Shown here piece after piece: positions 39,060 to 45,451 of a DNA stretch of 64,000 nucleotides. The stretch spans positions 1,303,114 through 1,367,113 of the forward strand of contig NZ_JH815198.1 in assembly GCF_000296445.1 (NCBI RefSeq), written 5' to 3'. The notes under the pieces were generated by a model, which was not told where the DNA came from, searched no databases, and was given only the letters and a program-made list of their open reading frames with translations. This DNA is from Slackia piriformis YIT 12062. Its GTDB lineage: Bacteria > Actinomycetota > Coriobacteriia > Coriobacteriales > Eggerthellaceae. The translations under genes were made by a program, and so were the position numbers. The stretch's first letter is position 1. Each line of letters opens with the position of its first letter.

Positions 39060-39239
39060 TTACTTCAGCGCGTCAACATGCTCTTCGAGCGCTGCGAGTT
39101 TCTTCTCGGTTCGCTTGAGCTTGGTCGTGATGAACACGACGTAACCGCACAAGACCAAGAAGATAAGAGCGTATGCGGCAATAACAAACGGAGCCGCGCC
39201 AAGAACGGTGGAATAGATTTCTGCCAAAACGGGATCCAT
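39060..39239 (-). CDS. ccmD: Small CcmD-like single-helix membrane protein
   Basis: A 59-residue frame reading MDPVLAEIYS, one hydrophobic helix (about 14-38), then a basic/coiled tail KLKRTEKKLAALEEHVDAL. CcmD proteins are small single-span peptides that hold CcmABC with CcmE during haem loading; size, topology, tail and position after ccmC fit. The ATG is 2 nt from the ccmC stop. Sequence conservation in CcmD is low, so the call depends on context. Confidence 0.7.
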   Translation of the reverse strand: MDPVLAEIYSTVLGAAPFVIAAYALIFLVLCGYVVFITTKLKRTEKKLAALEEHVDALK

Positions 39240-39241
39240 AG

Positions 39242-40009
39242 TTAGTCCTCCAGTTTATCCTGAATACGAGCGAGTTTCTCTTCCATGACCTGAGCGCGCA
39301 GACGCAGGCGATACAAGCCGAATGCAATCAAGGCAAAACCCGCCATGCCGAGCATGAGGGGCAGCAGCATCTCGGGAGAAAGCCCCGAGTCGGTCCTGAA
39401 AATCACAGGGTGCACGCCCGACGGAATCAGGCGCGTGACCAAAAAGCAGATGGGCACGTCAATGAAGATCAGAATGCCGAAAACGCTTGCGTAGACGGCA
39501 CGACGCTCGGTGTCTTCGACCGCGTTGCGTAGGATGAAATAGCCGAAGATCATCAGCATCAAGATGAAATACGTGGTGAGACGAGGCTCCCACGTCCACC
39601 AGACGCCCCATTCGAAGCGCTCCCACATCTCTCCGGAAACCATCGTGCACAGCACGAACACCAGCGCGATTTCCGTAGCAATGCGCGCACGCGTGTCATA
39701 GCAGGCGCGCTTGGTCATGAGAAACCTGATGCCGTAGTAGGCCGTGAAGACCAGCGCCGCGAAGCTCGCGATTGCAACGGGCATGTGCCAGTAGAAAATC
39801 TTCTGCGAGAGCAATAGCTTGTTTTGCACCATGGCACCGCCGATGAGCGCAGGCTCGTTGACCGCCGCTCCGTTGACCAGCGGGGCAATGGTGAAATTCA
39901 GAACAAACCCGAGCGTCGCAAGCAACGCCCCGAGAGCGAGCGCCCACGGCGCCACGCGATCGATAATCCCCCCGATCGCAGGTTCTTTGGCCTTTTCTTC
40001 GTTGGCCAT
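39242..40009 (-). CDS. ccmC: Haem exporter / handling protein CcmC
   Basis: Polytopic membrane protein that presents haem to CcmE in cytochrome c maturation (System I). The 255 residues show six hydrophobic helices, the haem-binding histidines around QKIFYWHMPVA and the tryptophan-rich WWD-type periplasmic motif FEWGVWWTWEPRLTTY between helices 3 and 4, then SGVHPVIFRT. The family usually has WxxWDxRLT; here Glu replaces the Asp. ATG 40009 follows GAAAGGATTGGT; the longer upstream frame overlaps ccmB. Ends with a charged cytoplasmic helix. Confidence 0.9.
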   Translation of the reverse strand: MANEEKAKEPAIGGIIDRVAPWALALGALLATLGFVLNFTIAPLVNGAAVNEPALIGGAMVQNKLLLSQKIFYWHMPVAIASFAALVFTAYYGIRFLMTKRACYDTRARIATEIALVFVLCTMVSGEMWERFEWGVWWTWEPRLTTYFILMLMIFGYFILRNAVEDTERRAVYASVFGILIFIDVPICFLVTRLIPSGVHPVIFRTDSGLSPEMLLPLMLGMAGFALIAFGLYRLRLRAQVMEEKLARIQDKLED

Positions 40010-40023
40010 ACCAATCCTTTCCC

Positions 40024-40740
40024 TTAAGCGCTTACCACGAAATCGTACAGCACCCACGATATCAAGATCATCACGATATCGTAGCCTGCCGAAAGAGCCA
40101 TTGACGTCACGAACGTATCCATGAATCCTTCCGGGGCGCACATGACGCATGTCGTCGCCGAAACGCACGCCCACAACAGCGGAAAGAGCAGCGGAATGAA
40201 CAGTACGGCGAGCATGACGTCTTTCCCGCGCGTATTCATGGTGATGGTGGAAAGCATGGTGCCGACGCCGGCGATGCCCACCGTGCCCGCCAAAAGCGGT
40301 GCGATCATAAGCGGCCATGTCGGCGCAGCCCCCACCTGCCCGAGGAACAGGAAGAAGAACAGGGGCACCGTGACCGCGGTGACCACGAGAAGAAATATCA
40401 GATTGGCCGTCGCCTTCGCAAGGAAGATGACCGAGCGATCCATGGGAACGAGCAGGATGCCCTCGAGACACCCCTGCTCCTTCTCATGCGAAAAGGAGCG
40501 ATTCAGACCCAGAAGACTCGTGAACAGAATTACCGCCCACAGCAGGCCTCCGGCCATCTGCAGGATATCGAGCTCGCTTCCCGCCTGTGCAAGCGCGGCG
40601 CCGTAGACCACAAGCACCAGAAGCGCATAAAGGCCCATGGAGGTGAGCATGTCCTTGGTATGCAGCTCCTGGGAAAGGTCCTTTTTCAGGAGCGCCACGT
40701 AATGGGCCCACGTGGAAGGCTTCTTCATAGCAACGGCCAT
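40024..40740 (-). CDS. ccmB: Haem exporter permease CcmB
   Basis: ABC-type membrane subunit working with CcmA during haem handling for cytochrome c assembly. The 238 residues start with a basic helix (STWAHYVALLKKDLSQELHT), typical of CcmB, then six membrane segments including LLWAVILFTSLLGLNRSF and KEQGCLEGILLVPMDRS, a CcmB hallmark. Its start overlaps the ccmA stop by one base (TAATG). 14 nt separate its stop from the ccmC start. Confidence 0.9.
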   Translation of the reverse strand: MAVAMKKPSTWAHYVALLKKDLSQELHTKDMLTSMGLYALLVLVVYGAALAQAGSELDILQMAGGLLWAVILFTSLLGLNRSFSHEKEQGCLEGILLVPMDRSVIFLAKATANLIFLLVVTAVTVPLFFFLFLGQVGAAPTWPLMIAPLLAGTVGIAGVGTMLSTITMNTRGKDVMLAVLFIPLLFPLLWACVSATTCVMCAPEGFMDTFVTSMALSAGYDIVMILISWVLYDFVVSA

Positions 40741-41480
40741 TACGCCACCCCCATCCCGACGGTTTCGCGATACAGCCCCTTAAATTCGTCAAAATCAAGC
40801 TCGTCTTTCGGAGAGCACACCATCACGCGGCCGCGAGCGAGCATCATCGCATGCGTGCAGGCGGCAAAGCCCTTCTGCAGGTCATGACTCACCATGACGA
40901 AGGTGCGCCCTTCGCGCAGGCTTGCAATGAGCTCGTCAAAGATCTCGACAGCGTGCGGATCGAGGCCCGCATACGGCTCGTCGAGAAACACCACATCCGG
41001 GTCGTTGATCAATGCGCGGGCAATAGAAAGACGCTGGGTCATGCCGCGCGAGAACGTACGAACCGAGTCGAAGCGGCGATGGTCAAGCTCGACCGCACGA
41101 AGCAGTTCGCGCACACGCGCTTCCGGATCAACCACGCCGTACAGGCGCGCCACGAACATCATATTCTCCATCGCGGTCAGGTCGGGATACAGCATGGAAT
41201 TGTGCGATATGAGACCAATATGGTCGCGCACCTTGTCTGGATCTTCCTTGGCATCTATCCCCATGACGCGAATCGTCCCCGAGGTGGGGCGGGCAAGCGT
41301 AGAAAGCATGCGCAGCATGGTGGTCTTGCCCGCACCGTTCGGACCGAAAATGGAAAGAAACGCTCCTTGCGGCAGAGAGAACGACACGTTGTCTAAGGCC
41401 TTGCGGTCGCCGAAGACCTTCGTGAGCTTTTTCACCTCAAGCGCAAGCGGCTCGTTGGCCAAAGCATCCGCCATGTTCAT
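40740..41480 (-). CDS. ccmA: Haem exporter ATP-binding protein CcmA
   Basis: ABC ATPase of the CcmAB complex that releases holo-CcmE. The 246 residues contain Walker A GPNGAGKTTMLRML, the Q-loop at LISHNSMLYPDL, the signature FSRGMTQRLSIARAL, Walker B PDVVFLDEPYAGLDP and the switch His in VMVSHDLQKG. The dimer signature reads SRGMTQR rather than SGGQ, as commonly seen in CcmA-like groups. ATG follows AGGGGAGTGA; the gene lies 8 nt after ccmF. Confidence 0.88.
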   Translation of the reverse strand: MNMADALANEPLALEVKKLTKVFGDRKALDNVSFSLPQGAFLSIFGPNGAGKTTMLRMLSTLARPTSGTIRVMGIDAKEDPDKVRDHIGLISHNSMLYPDLTAMENMMFVARLYGVVDPEARVRELLRAVELDHRRFDSVRTFSRGMTQRLSIARALINDPDVVFLDEPYAGLDPHAVEIFDELIASLREGRTFVMVSHDLQKGFAACTHAMMLARGRVMVCSPKDELDFDEFKGLYRETVGMGVA

Positions 41481-41488
41481 TCACTCCC

Positions 41489-43732
41489 CTACGCCGTTGC
41501 CTGCTCGCGTGCTTCTTCCTCATCCGACGCGCCGTCGACGCCTTCGCCACGGGATTCCTTCTTCGAGACCGAGGAAGCTTCGCCGTCTTTGCGACGGCCG
41601 AACAAAGCGATGGCCGTACCGAGCATCAGAAGCGCGAAGCCAACCCAGGCAAAGCTCACCAGCGGGTTCACGCGCACGTCCATGGAAAGATCGCCCGCAT
41701 CGTTCACGCCGCGATACACGACGAAAAGATCTTCGGTCGGGAAGCTGATCACGCTCGCGTTGAGCTTGGTCTGCTGCGTGGAAGCCACCAGCTGAACCGA
41801 CGGGTTCACATGTCCGATATAGGCGCCCGTGTTCACGTCGTACACGTCGAACTCTACGCGATACAAAATGTCGTCGCCGTTCGGCATGGTCTCCACGTCG
41901 CTGCCGGTGTAGCGCAACTCGTAATCGTCGATGACGAAGTTCTCCGCCGTATCGGCCTCTTCGTCGAAGGCCACGTAGTCGGTCTTCTCCGTCACGAACA
42001 TGGAGGAGCCGATAAGGCCCACCAGGATGATGGCCATGGCGAAGTGGGCGATGTAGCCGCCGTACTTCGAGGAATTCGAACCCAGCATGCCGAAAAATGC
42101 CGCCACAGGGTTTTTGCCCGTCGCCTTGGCGCGCTTGGACGCAGCGCGCGCAATCATGAAGAGCGTGTTGAAGAACAGCAGGCTCGCCACGGCGAAGCCG
42201 ACGACAGCGAGTCCGTTGTAATACCACACGGGGCCTTCGGACATCAGCTCTTCAGCCGCCGTTACAGCAGCCTGGGATGCTCCCTGCGCAGAGCCAGCCT
42301 GAATAATGGCATCGTACGCCGGATACAGCGTGGTCACAAAATAGGCGAGCAGGACGACGAAGAGAACGGCAGCGCAGATTGCAGGAACTTTCGCCAGACG
42401 GGAAAACTCCTTGCGGTCGGTTTTCGTCCAGGCAAGCAGCGGGCAGACCGCGATGATGAAGCAGTAGACAATGCCGAGCGGGCGGGCAATAGCATCGTAG
42501 GTGCCCGCGGAAAGGCTCTGACCGCCAAACGGAAGGAAGGTCGGCAGAGCGCTTGCCACCGTGAGGTAGCACAGGACGAACGTGAACACGATCATAATCA
42601 CGTTGTTGAAGTAATACGCGGCCGCTTTCGACGCCATGGACTCGATCGCATCGTCGGATGCGAACGCCTTCCAGCGAATTGCCAGGCCGATAAGGCCCAC
42701 CAACACGGCGACAACGATAAGCCCGCCGAAAAGCATGAGCGACACCGGATCGCCCTCGAACGCATGAACGGACTGCACCACGCCGGAACGGGTGATGAAC
42801 GTTCCTACCACAACGAAGGCAAACGTGAGGCATGCGCACATGACGCTCCAACGCTTGAAGGCGCCGCGCTTGCGATAGACCGTGAAGCTGTGCACAAGCG
42901 CAAGCGCGACCATCCACGAAAGGAGGCTCGCATTCTCAACGGGGTCCCACGCCCAGTAGCCACCCCAGCCAAGCACGACATACGCCCAAACGGCACCGAG
43001 CCCGATACCGATACCGAGGAAGAGCCAGCTGAACATGGCGTAGCGGCTCGAGCGCACGACCCATTTCGCGCTTGCATCGTTGACGATAAGCGCAGCGATC
43101 GCGTAGGCGAACGGAATCGTGAGACCCGCATACCCGACGAACAGCGTCGGCGGATGGATGGCCTGAGCCCAGTGCTCGAGCAGCGGGCTCATGCCGAGGC
43201 TCGACGCCATTGCCGTGAGATTGCCGTTCGCATCCACATAAGGCGAAGCCGTAGCGATGAAGGGCATGTTGCTTTCAGAGAACAGGCACACGGCGACGAA
43301 CGCGGTCAAAACGAGGTTCGAGACGAAAAGTGCCATGCAGTCAAGATCGTCGAGGTTCTTCATGGCGCGAACGGCCACCACCACGTTGAAGACAGAAATA
43401 AGCCACGCCCAGAACAGCAGCGACCCTTCGCGTCCGGCCCACAGACCGCTGAAGCGATAGAGCACGCCAAGCGCGCCGTCGGCATCCGAGTGCTCCATGA
43501 GAACGTATTCGATGGACATATCGCCCGTCATGAAGCAAAAGACCAGAATGCCGCAGCACACCGTCAAGGCAACGGCAGTGAGGATGGATGCCACGCAACC
43601 GCCCCACGAAGCCGTCTCTGCCGCGCCGGTCTTGCCGGCCTTCTTAAGAATGCGGCCCGCAAGCAGACAGACCACGGAAACGACTACGCCCGCAAATGCA
43701 ATGACGAGTCCCATCAATCCGAAAGTGGACAT
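41489..43732 (-). CDS. ccmF: Haem lyase CcmF
   Basis: Large membrane protein of the haem ligation complex that transfers haem from CcmE to apocytochromes. The 747 residues have a string of about 14 helices; helix 5-6 region carries the WWD motif WGGYWAWDPVENASLLSW near 240 and GREGSLLFWAWL near 95 as in CcmF. The C-terminal periplasmic region (about 570-700) is followed by the last helix FAWVGFALLMLGTAIALFG and a charged tail. It lies 3 nt after ccmE. CcmH/NrfE-type partners are absent nearby, so CcmF may act alone or with distant partners. Confidence 0.93.
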   Translation of the reverse strand: MSTFGLMGLVIAFAGVVVSVVCLLAGRILKKAGKTGAAETASWGGCVASILTAVALTVCCGILVFCFMTGDMSIEYVLMEHSDADGALGVLYRFSGLWAGREGSLLFWAWLISVFNVVVAVRAMKNLDDLDCMALFVSNLVLTAFVAVCLFSESNMPFIATASPYVDANGNLTAMASSLGMSPLLEHWAQAIHPPTLFVGYAGLTIPFAYAIAALIVNDASAKWVVRSSRYAMFSWLFLGIGIGLGAVWAYVVLGWGGYWAWDPVENASLLSWMVALALVHSFTVYRKRGAFKRWSVMCACLTFAFVVVGTFITRSGVVQSVHAFEGDPVSLMLFGGLIVVAVLVGLIGLAIRWKAFASDDAIESMASKAAAYYFNNVIMIVFTFVLCYLTVASALPTFLPFGGQSLSAGTYDAIARPLGIVYCFIIAVCPLLAWTKTDRKEFSRLAKVPAICAAVLFVVLLAYFVTTLYPAYDAIIQAGSAQGASQAAVTAAEELMSEGPVWYYNGLAVVGFAVASLLFFNTLFMIARAASKRAKATGKNPVAAFFGMLGSNSSKYGGYIAHFAMAIILVGLIGSSMFVTEKTDYVAFDEEADTAENFVIDDYELRYTGSDVETMPNGDDILYRVEFDVYDVNTGAYIGHVNPSVQLVASTQQTKLNASVISFPTEDLFVVYRGVNDAGDLSMDVRVNPLVSFAWVGFALLMLGTAIALFGRRKDGEASSVSKKESRGEGVDGASDEEEAREQATA

Positions 43733-43735
43733 GCA

Positions 43736-44416
43736 CTATCCTTCCTGCGCGACATCGGTCGCAACGAACGAACCAGAACCGGAAAGCGACCCGGTGATGA
43801 CGACCGAAGTGCCGTCGACGATAGCGTCAGGCAGCGCGCCGTCGAACTCGACGGGAACCTGCAGCGTCGCATCTTGAGAATCCGCCACGACGAAGCGAGG
43901 TTCTCCGGAGCCCGCCGCCGTCAGCGTGCCCTCGCCCACCACGCCTGCGAGCTTGACCGTCGTATCGACAATATCGTCGCCGTATTCGAGCAAGCGGGAG
44001 ACCGACAGGGCATCCGTGGCGCTTTCGTATTTAGAGGGGCATTTCGTCACCAATTCGCTTGCCACCAACTCAACACCTCCATCGGCAGAAATCAGCTTTC
44101 CCGTGCAGATGGCCGTTACGCCATTGCCGAACGTAGAAGATGCCGCCCCATCGTAGCTTACGCGCAGCGTCTGGGACTCATCCCCTTCCGGATCGCAGAT
44201 TTCAAACGTAAGAACGTTGTCTTTCGTGGCAAATGAATTGTCGACCACGTTTCCCGAGACCTGGACACGGTCGGAATCGTGCGCCCCGCTCAACGCGTCG
44301 GCAACCGTGACGGTCTTTGCGGCACCGCCGCTTCCCACCACGGCCAAGACGATTGCCAAAACCACCACGATCACGCCCGTTACCACAACGAGCCTGCGTT
44401 TGGTTTTCGTATTCAT
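43736..44416 (-). CDS. ccmE: Cytochrome c maturation haem chaperone CcmE, Cys-type with two OB-like domains
   Basis: Membrane-anchored periplasmic haem chaperone. One N-terminal helix (about 8-28) is followed by an OB-like domain (about 35-130) ending in Cys126-Pro-Ser-Lys-Tyr130. Classical CcmE attaches haem through His in HxxxY; a CxxxY type is known from Gram-positive bacteria, archaea and sulfate reducers. A second domain (about 135-224) repeats the CcmE pattern (VKLAGVV, FVVAD, GALPD, VVITGSLSGSGSFVA) but lacks the haem-attachment motif and ends the protein, making it 226 residues rather than about 150. ATG follows AAAGGAGCAGG. First gene of the ccm run. Confidence 0.85.
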   Translation of the reverse strand: MNTKTKRRLVVVTGVIVVVLAIVLAVVGSGGAAKTVTVADALSGAHDSDRVQVSGNVVDNSFATKDNVLTFEICDPEGDESQTLRVSYDGAASSTFGNGVTAICTGKLISADGGVELVASELVTKCPSKYESATDALSVSRLLEYGDDIVDTTVKLAGVVGEGTLTAAGSGEPRFVVADSQDATLQVPVEFDGALPDAIVDGTSVVITGSLSGSGSFVATDVAQEG

Positions 44417-44704: not shown

Positions 44705-45451
44705 TTAAAGCGTGGAAAGCTTCTTGGCCTCGGTGGTGGTCAGCCAACCCTCGGGAACGGGAGCGCTGCTGTGGCACTGCGTGCAGTAGTTCACAGACTG
44801 GCTGTGCGCCTTGTGGCACTGGCTGCATGCATACTCGCCATGCTGGGCGGTATGCGGATTGTAGGTGGAATCGAGATCTGCAGTTGCAGCCTCGAGATCG
44901 GCGCGAGAGGTGATCTCCTTGCCGTCCTCGGTGACATGGTGGCAATCGCCGTTGAGGCAAAACTCGTCCTCTTCGATGCCGCGGGCCTCGACGAGGTCAG
45001 AAAGCTCGCGCTCTTCAAGGATGGTCTGGCCGACCTTGTTCTCGCCAGCAACCTCATAGCTGCCGGTCACCCAGTGCATACCCTCGGTAATCTGCTCGCC
45101 CAGGGTGGGAACATGGCAACCGAGGCAGTTGGTGGTTTCGCCCTCGGTGGTGTGGCCGTGGTAGTAAGCCATCATGGCCATCTTGTCGGACTCTTCGGTC
45201 AGCTCGTTGCCGTACTTGTCATGAGAGCCGTCGATGTAGCTCTCGGCATATGCGTCCATCGGCGTATGGCAGATGGCATTGCAGAAGCTCGGCTGCTCGT
45301 GCCAGACGAAAAAGCCTGCACCTGCAGCAACCAACACAACGGCAACAACGCCCACGACGATAGGCCACTTCTTCTTGCCGTTCTTAGCCTTCTTGGCATC
45401 CTTGGCGGGTTCCTCGGTCGCAGCGACGTCGGTCTTGGTTTCCTCAGCCAT
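44705..45451 (-). CDS. Membrane-anchored multihaem cytochrome c (NrfH/NapC-like)
   Basis: Probable quinol-oxidising or electron-relay cytochrome. The 248 residues have a charged Lys-rich N-terminus, one membrane helix (about 29-48) and five c-type haem motifs: CNAICH (CX3CH), CLGCH, CLNGDCH (CX4CH), CSQCH and CTQCH. Three are standard CX2CH; two have longer spacing. Several such proteins feed reductases in Eggerthella-type bacteria, which fits the fumarate-reductase-like flavoprotein elsewhere in the window. It lies directly upstream of the ccm genes that would mature it. ATG follows GAAAGGGGGG. Partner enzyme not seen next to it. Confidence 0.85.
   Translation of the reverse strand: MAEETKTDVAATEEPAKDAKKAKNGKKKWPIVVGVVAVVLVAAGAGFFVWHEQPSFCNAICHTPMDAYAESYIDGSHDKYGNELTEESDKMAMMAYYHGHTTEGETTNCLGCHVPTLGEQITEGMHWVTGSYEVAGENKVGQTILEERELSDLVEARGIEEDEFCLNGDCHHVTEDGKEITSRADLEAATADLDSTYNPHTAQHGEYACSQCHKAHSQSVNYCTQCHSSAPVPEGWLTTTEAKKLSTL

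Follow-up and report, generated by a model that had tools for sequence, protein, structure and literature searches.

Why would a CcmE protein carry, fused behind its haem-attachment motif, a second CcmE-like domain that has no such motif? The question is raised by an open reading frame (ORF) in a stretch of 64,000 nucleotides from Slackia piriformis YIT 12062, class Coriobacteriia (contig NZ_JH815198.1; hereafter the window). The frame runs on the minus strand from an ATG at 44416 to a stop codon ending at 43736 and is open throughout, which confirms the position given by a first-pass annotation made from the letters alone. Its parts are as follows, in window coordinates.

43736 to 44416, minus strand: ccmE, a tandem two-domain CcmE of 226 aa (ORF call and two PF03100 matches in one frame)
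44333 to 44410, minus strand: N-terminal membrane anchor, residues 3 to 28 (helix in the AlphaFold2 model; hydrophobic sequence)
44021 to 44311, minus strand: domain 1 (D1), OB-fold CcmE domain, presumed to carry haem, residues 36 to 132 (PF03100, 53.5 bits; model strands within 34 to 125)
44027 to 44041, minus strand: haem-attachment motif Cys126-Pro-Ser-Lys-Tyr130 (DNA TGC CCC TCT AAA TAC)
44006 to 44026, minus strand: interdomain linker, residues 131 to 137 (sequence; in the model the last D1 strand ends at 125 and the D2 helix starts at 139)
43742 to 44005, minus strand: domain 2 (D2), haem-free CcmE-like OB domain, residues 138 to 225 (PF03100, 49.8 bits; fold of D2 modelled alone; PDB profile search)

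Both PF03100 matches exceed the curated cut-off of 24.6 bits, with E values of 4.5e-14 for D1 (44021 to 44311) and 6.7e-13 for D2 (43748 to 44008; residues about 137 to 223). The protein also has other features of the CcmE family, namely, an OB-fold domain and a single N-terminal membrane helix in the AlphaFold2 models, the CxxxY motif in D1, and adjoining genes of the ccm system. Judged by its sequence, the ORF is a CcmE with two CcmE domains; the second domain that the first-pass annotation had proposed is real, and the string quoted there lies at about residues 153 to 219. The numbering of Cys126 and Tyr130 was likewise right, and both residues are invariant in the 31 aligned proteins of the class. 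By analogy, D1 probably binds haem at Cys126: in Methanosarcina acetivorans CcmE, the Cys of CxxxY is reported to bind haem, which is lost in a C120A variant (PMC9084895). The description of CxxxY as the Gram-positive and archaeal variant was too narrow, since records under titles such as Acidobacteria, Chloroflexi, Deltaproteobacteria, and Deferribacteraceae also contain KCPSKY. In the Slackia protein the motif is positioned between D1 and D2, and sequence and model indicate that the haem-bearing loop is tethered at both sides by a short linker.

Downstream of ccmE, the following genes of the same operon were recognized.

41489 to 43732, minus strand: ccmF, haem lyase of 747 aa, the next gene downstream (PF01578 and PF16327)
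40740 to 41480, minus strand: ccmA, ABC ATPase (PF00005; ccmA model below its cut-off; position)
40024 to 40740, minus strand: ccmB (PF03379)
39242 to 40006, minus strand: ccmC, start approximate (PF01578; ccmC subfamily model 100 bits, below its cut-off)
39060 to 39239, minus strand: candidate ccmD-like small membrane protein of 59 aa (size, place, and one hydrophobic stretch with a basic tail, by eye)

Upstream of ccmE, across a gap of about 290 bases, lies a gene for a Cgr1-like multihaem cytochrome (44705 to 45451, minus strand), which scores 288 bits with the Cgr1 model, below the cut-off of 340. It encodes three CXXCH motifs and apparent CX3CH (CNAICH) and CX4CH (CLNGDCH) motifs.

The descent of D2 was addressed with a profile of 29 D2 sequences, which returned solved CcmE chains as the top matches in the PDB (2kct, E = 3.7e-9; 1sr3, 3.7e-8; 8ce8_E, 5.3e-8; 1j6q, 2.1e-7); this argues for a CcmE ancestry of D2. 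Because the structural neighbours of the full-length model were all taken by D1, D2 was also modelled alone (mean pLDDT, 90.6; pTM, 0.77). This model aligns with E. coli CcmE 1sr3 over 89 residues (Z, 11.6; rmsd, 2.6); OB folds of tRNA synthetases and replication proteins match it about as well, so that structure by itself identifies an OB fold only and the CcmE assignment is carried by the sequence profile. By Pfam, the D2 profile, and the D2 model, the two halves of the protein are both CcmE-family domains, and the second is not an unrelated fold. The full-length model (pLDDT, 92.6) comprises a helix at residues 3 to 28, a barrel at 34 to 125, a helix at 139 to 149, and a second barrel at 154 to 225; with a pTM of 0.61, it was read for the order of the domains and not for how D1, D2, and the haem loop are arranged relative to one another, which counts against any reading in which D2 caps the haem or docks on CcmF.

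What D2 has lost is consistent across the class. A C/HxxxY motif is present in D2 of 0/31 class proteins, as the first-pass annotation had noted for this one, and D2 taken alone is thus a CcmE-family domain and not a haem-carrying CcmE; 28 of the 31 have no cysteine in D2 at all. The D1 residue F96, aligned with the Phe of E. coli LPDLFREG, which we take to belong to the haem platform, is conserved in all 31 proteins, and the matching D2 column is non-aromatic in every one of them, with Met, Val, Ile, and Leu among the residues there (set A1); in a partly different set (A4), Phe occurs there in 2 of 29. G158, R174, F175, and G209 are conserved in D2 among the 31 proteins. Invariant D2 residues are few (three in A4), and mean pairwise identity is 0.40 for D2 versus 0.51 for D1. 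Nei-Gojobori dN/dS values, obtained for 13 of the 14 closest pairs, range from 0.08 to 0.50 for D2 and from 0 to 0.29 for D1, the pairs being non-independent and several of them near saturation at silent sites; D2 has the higher value in 12 of 13. Substitution patterns of this kind indicate that D2 is under purifying selection while evolving faster than D1; the faster evolution and the small number of invariant residues both count against a capping or docking role.

The doubling of CcmE is, on these sequence data, the rule in the class Coriobacteriia. At least one PF03100 match was found in 219 of 396 class genomes and at least two in 213 of these 219. Among the six exceptions, G103 and G131 have a diverged D2 that a D2-specific profile detects, ccmE is cut by a contig end in G091 and G149, the sole match in G133 is an insert in ccmF, and the match in G308 is below the cut-off and lies in an unrelated 415-aa protein that is not ccmE. 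The sharing of one frame by both domains was verified for individual sequences in three partly overlapping sets: 31 class proteins, the 29 fused loci among 80 named ones, and stretches chosen from further genomes and family groups (20/20). The titles of the fused named loci include Collinsella, Enorma, Adlercreutzia, Rubneribacter, Eggerthellaceae, Anaerosomatales, and Coriobacteriia, with 8 of the 29 titled by phylum or a broader actinobacterial name only; the rest of the named set consists of one Coriobacteriia locus cut after D1 (L145) and 50 single-domain loci from many phyla. The doubled length is therefore not common to all CcmE proteins but is common to essentially the whole class, and it is no peculiarity of this genome.

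Elsewhere the fusion was not encountered. A match to PF03100 is present in 169 genomes of Actinomycetota, comprising 24 in the class, with two matches each, and 145 outside it; of the latter, 134 have a single match, and the remaining 11 have a second one, never in the same frame as the first and in 5 of the 11 in an adjacent gene, so that no fused pair was found among these 145. Neither was one found in Chloroflexota (match in 140 of 201 genomes), in archaea (match in 35 of 80), or among the 50 named single-domain loci. In six Chloroflexota genomes there are several matches, full or partial, but they fall at different places or in different frames; in a seventh, G925, as in one frame of G877, a single domain is split by the profile. 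These wider surveys covered Actinomycetota, Chloroflexota, and archaea, and since the Pfam profile missed the diverged D2 of G103 and G131, it could likewise have overlooked the odd diverged second domain in them. The first-pass annotation had called a doubled CcmE unusual, which holds globally but not within Coriobacteriia.

Three kinds of side observation came from this survey. In other Actinomycetota, ccmF is preceded at five loci (L086, L087, L088, L090, and L091) by a pair of neighbouring but separate ccmE genes; the first encodes CPENY, CPDNY, or CPDKL (without Tyr) and the second KCPSKY, and CcmH is present. In 4 of the 35 matching archaeal genomes, a match is interrupted by a single in-frame stop (G980:C169:23281-23559, G1023:C5:42703-42981, G1041:C31:2943-3221, and G1000:C15:13185-13466); three are TAG and one is TAA, and the TAG stops could be pyrrolysine codons or errors. 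CcmE-like matches also occur within longer archaeal frames of 562 aa (G1023:C2:38508-38735) and 297 aa (G1035:C40:13482-13715), possibly other CcmE fusions.

The origin of D2 was examined in a domain tree of 109 rows. Of 199 domain rows collected, 107 were used, fragments, repeats, and L128 having been discarded beforehand, and the two domains of the window were added. D1 forms one clade (support, 99), which is joined by single-domain CcmE sequences from other Actinomycetota, among them Candidatus Aquicultor (95); D2 and domains inserted in CcmF, described below, form another (99) on a long branch. When D1 and D2 were constrained to one clade, with L001, L068, L072, and two long rows additionally dropped, the likelihood was better than that of the free search and the constraint was not rejected (p-AU, 0.79). 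The deep order of the tree is weak because the alignment has fewer than 100 columns. The simplest reading of these sequences is that the domain was duplicated within the gene once, long ago, in the common ancestor of the class. We also considered an origin by fusion of an adjacent ccmE pair, which is not favoured: in such pairs the KCPSKY gene is second, and the first genes do not group with D2.

A D2-like domain of about 95 aa was further found inside CcmF in two genomes of one family group, G109 (L094, 1992 to 4445; 40 bits) and G133 (L076/L095; 38 bits). It is flanked by the WWD motif and the ARPLG segment, which are 247 residues apart where it is present versus 150 to 156 in eight other CcmF proteins of the class. 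From helix parity, we infer that the loop carrying it is external and near the P-His2 and WWD haem site. The inserts group with D2 and are nearest to the D2 of their own lineage (support, 93), which counts in favour of D2 acting as a cap or dock; in G109, ccmE retains both of its domains besides the insert. The insert is seen in these two genomes only and is absent from two relatives in the family group, and the neighbouring ccmE and ccmF genes could have exchanged a D2-like module without functional meaning; both points weigh against that role.

Taken together, these observations are consistent with the following scheme. An ancestral Cys-type ccmE of Coriobacteriia would have undergone in-frame duplication of its OB domain. 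D1 would have stayed the haem chaperone, with CcmC loading haem onto Cys126 in the loop after the last D1 strand and Tyr130 beside it. Since D2 follows within about eight residues, this loop would have ceased to be a free tail and become a hinge that links the two OB barrels. D2, having lost the haem Cys and Tyr and the platform Phe, would cap the haem borne by D1 and/or dock on CcmF, presenting the haem to its external haem site. D2 is most likely such a haem-free docking or capping module because it is under purifying selection despite the lost Phe and because a D2-like domain was inserted in CcmF. In the window, ccmF directly follows ccmE with a gap of 3 bases, and the computational model described in PMC8975832 has E. 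coli CcmE turned towards the haem site of CcmF; both count for the proposal. Against it, archaeal and Desulfovibrio CcmE are reported to function with a single domain (PMC9084895), which means that Cys-type chemistry does not, as a rule, require D2. The tandem architecture, its distribution, the CcmE ancestry of D2, and selection on D2 could all be shown by sequence comparison; the capping or docking role is what we infer from them, and the suggestion in the first-pass annotation that the second domain serves as an intramolecular docking partner is plausible. For duplication and capping or docking as one explanation, we consider the chances evenly balanced. More tentatively, the protein may be a two-barrel chaperone that holds haem covalently at the hinge joining an OB domain that carries it to one that does not, with D2 as a portable cap or dock that one lineage also built into CcmF.

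Other roles for D2 are conceivable. It may be a structural spacer or stabilizer retained by constructive neutral evolution, such that its removal destabilizes the protein although it has no partner of its own. The weaker conservation and higher dN/dS of D2 would fit this, but D2 is kept in every intact class ccmE examined, with the same four residues conserved, and was copied into CcmF in one lineage, and we consider the idea doubtful. D2 might instead dock on the loading side (CcmABCD), holding CcmE at CcmC or CcmB while haem is coupled to Cys126 and being released with the haem. CcmE must indeed engage CcmC first, in a contact reported to be protein driven in E. coli (PMC6204919), and the ABC-type ccmA, ccmB, and ccmC share the operon of ccmE; the only fusion outside CcmE is nevertheless with CcmF, albeit in two genomes, and none was found with CcmA, B, C, or D. 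A loading-side dock thus appears unlikely.

The absence of CcmH offers another possible reason for D2, which could replace this missing partner of CcmF. PF03918 was found in 0/119 class genomes (4 of 14 control genomes were positive, and CcmH is present in 10 genomes of a chosen set of 30). But CcmH is also missing in all ten single-domain genomes of families f31, f45, f79, f34, f78, and f89 and in the three of f46, and a CxxC pair is all but absent from D2. With the closest single-domain families devoid of CcmH, its loss seems older than D2; it agrees with the known variant System I but gives no reason for D2, so that replacement of CcmH is disfavoured as highly improbable. Finally, the fusion might be an artefact in which two adjacent ccmE genes were falsely joined by an assembly or frameshift error. 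Adjacent pairs do exist in other Actinomycetota, but they carry the KCPSKY gene second, not first; moreover, the same fusion recurs independently in many assemblies and family groups of the class, and a single frame is open throughout the ORF. The probability of an artefact is accordingly negligible.

How holo-CcmE engages CcmF is debated, the proposals being entry by way of the periplasm and entry by way of the membrane leaflet (PMC10663686), and a CcmE with a haem-free paralogous domain fused at the haem loop, together with the same module in CcmF of one lineage, gives a direct handle on this step. If the reading of D2 as a portable cap or dock is true, haem hand-over from CcmE to CcmF would be mediated by a dedicated module that can move between donor and acceptor. 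The tandem CcmE may also have practical value: the multihaem cytochrome Cgr1 of Eggerthella, of the same class, was reported not to be matured in foreign hosts, possibly for reasons of incompatible maturation factors (PMC5953540), which makes the tandem protein a candidate factor for coexpression. CcmE itself is already known; what appears to be new, from sequence, is a haem-free second domain fused to it and fixed in a class. We found no description of this class-wide fusion in the literature searched, mostly open access, on CcmE, Coriobacteriia, or Eggerthella cytochrome maturation; domain databases may list the architecture.

Among known systems, the adjacent ccmE pairs of other Actinomycetota likewise place two CcmE domains side by side upstream of ccmF, but as separate genes with their own N-terminal hydrophobic starts, with motif variants (CPENY, CPDNY, or CPDKL, then KCPSKY) and with CcmH. 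E. coli CcmE (1sr3; 8ce8 chain E) shares the OB fold of D1 and D2 and the same family profile; it has an HxxxY motif, whereas the Coriobacteriia protein has Cys for His, two domains, and a haem loop tethered at both ends. The Cys-type CcmE of M. acetivorans and Desulfovibrio (variant System I) is alike in having CxxxY after the OB domain, an N-terminal anchor, and ccmABCEF, and the absence of CcmH from the class is a further feature of that variant. The one-domain CcmE of variant System I is not found in the class: where the Methanosarcina and Desulfovibrio proteins have one OB domain and a free tail, the Coriobacteriia protein has a haem-free second domain after the motif, and the operon in the window includes, in addition, a candidate ccmD-like gene.
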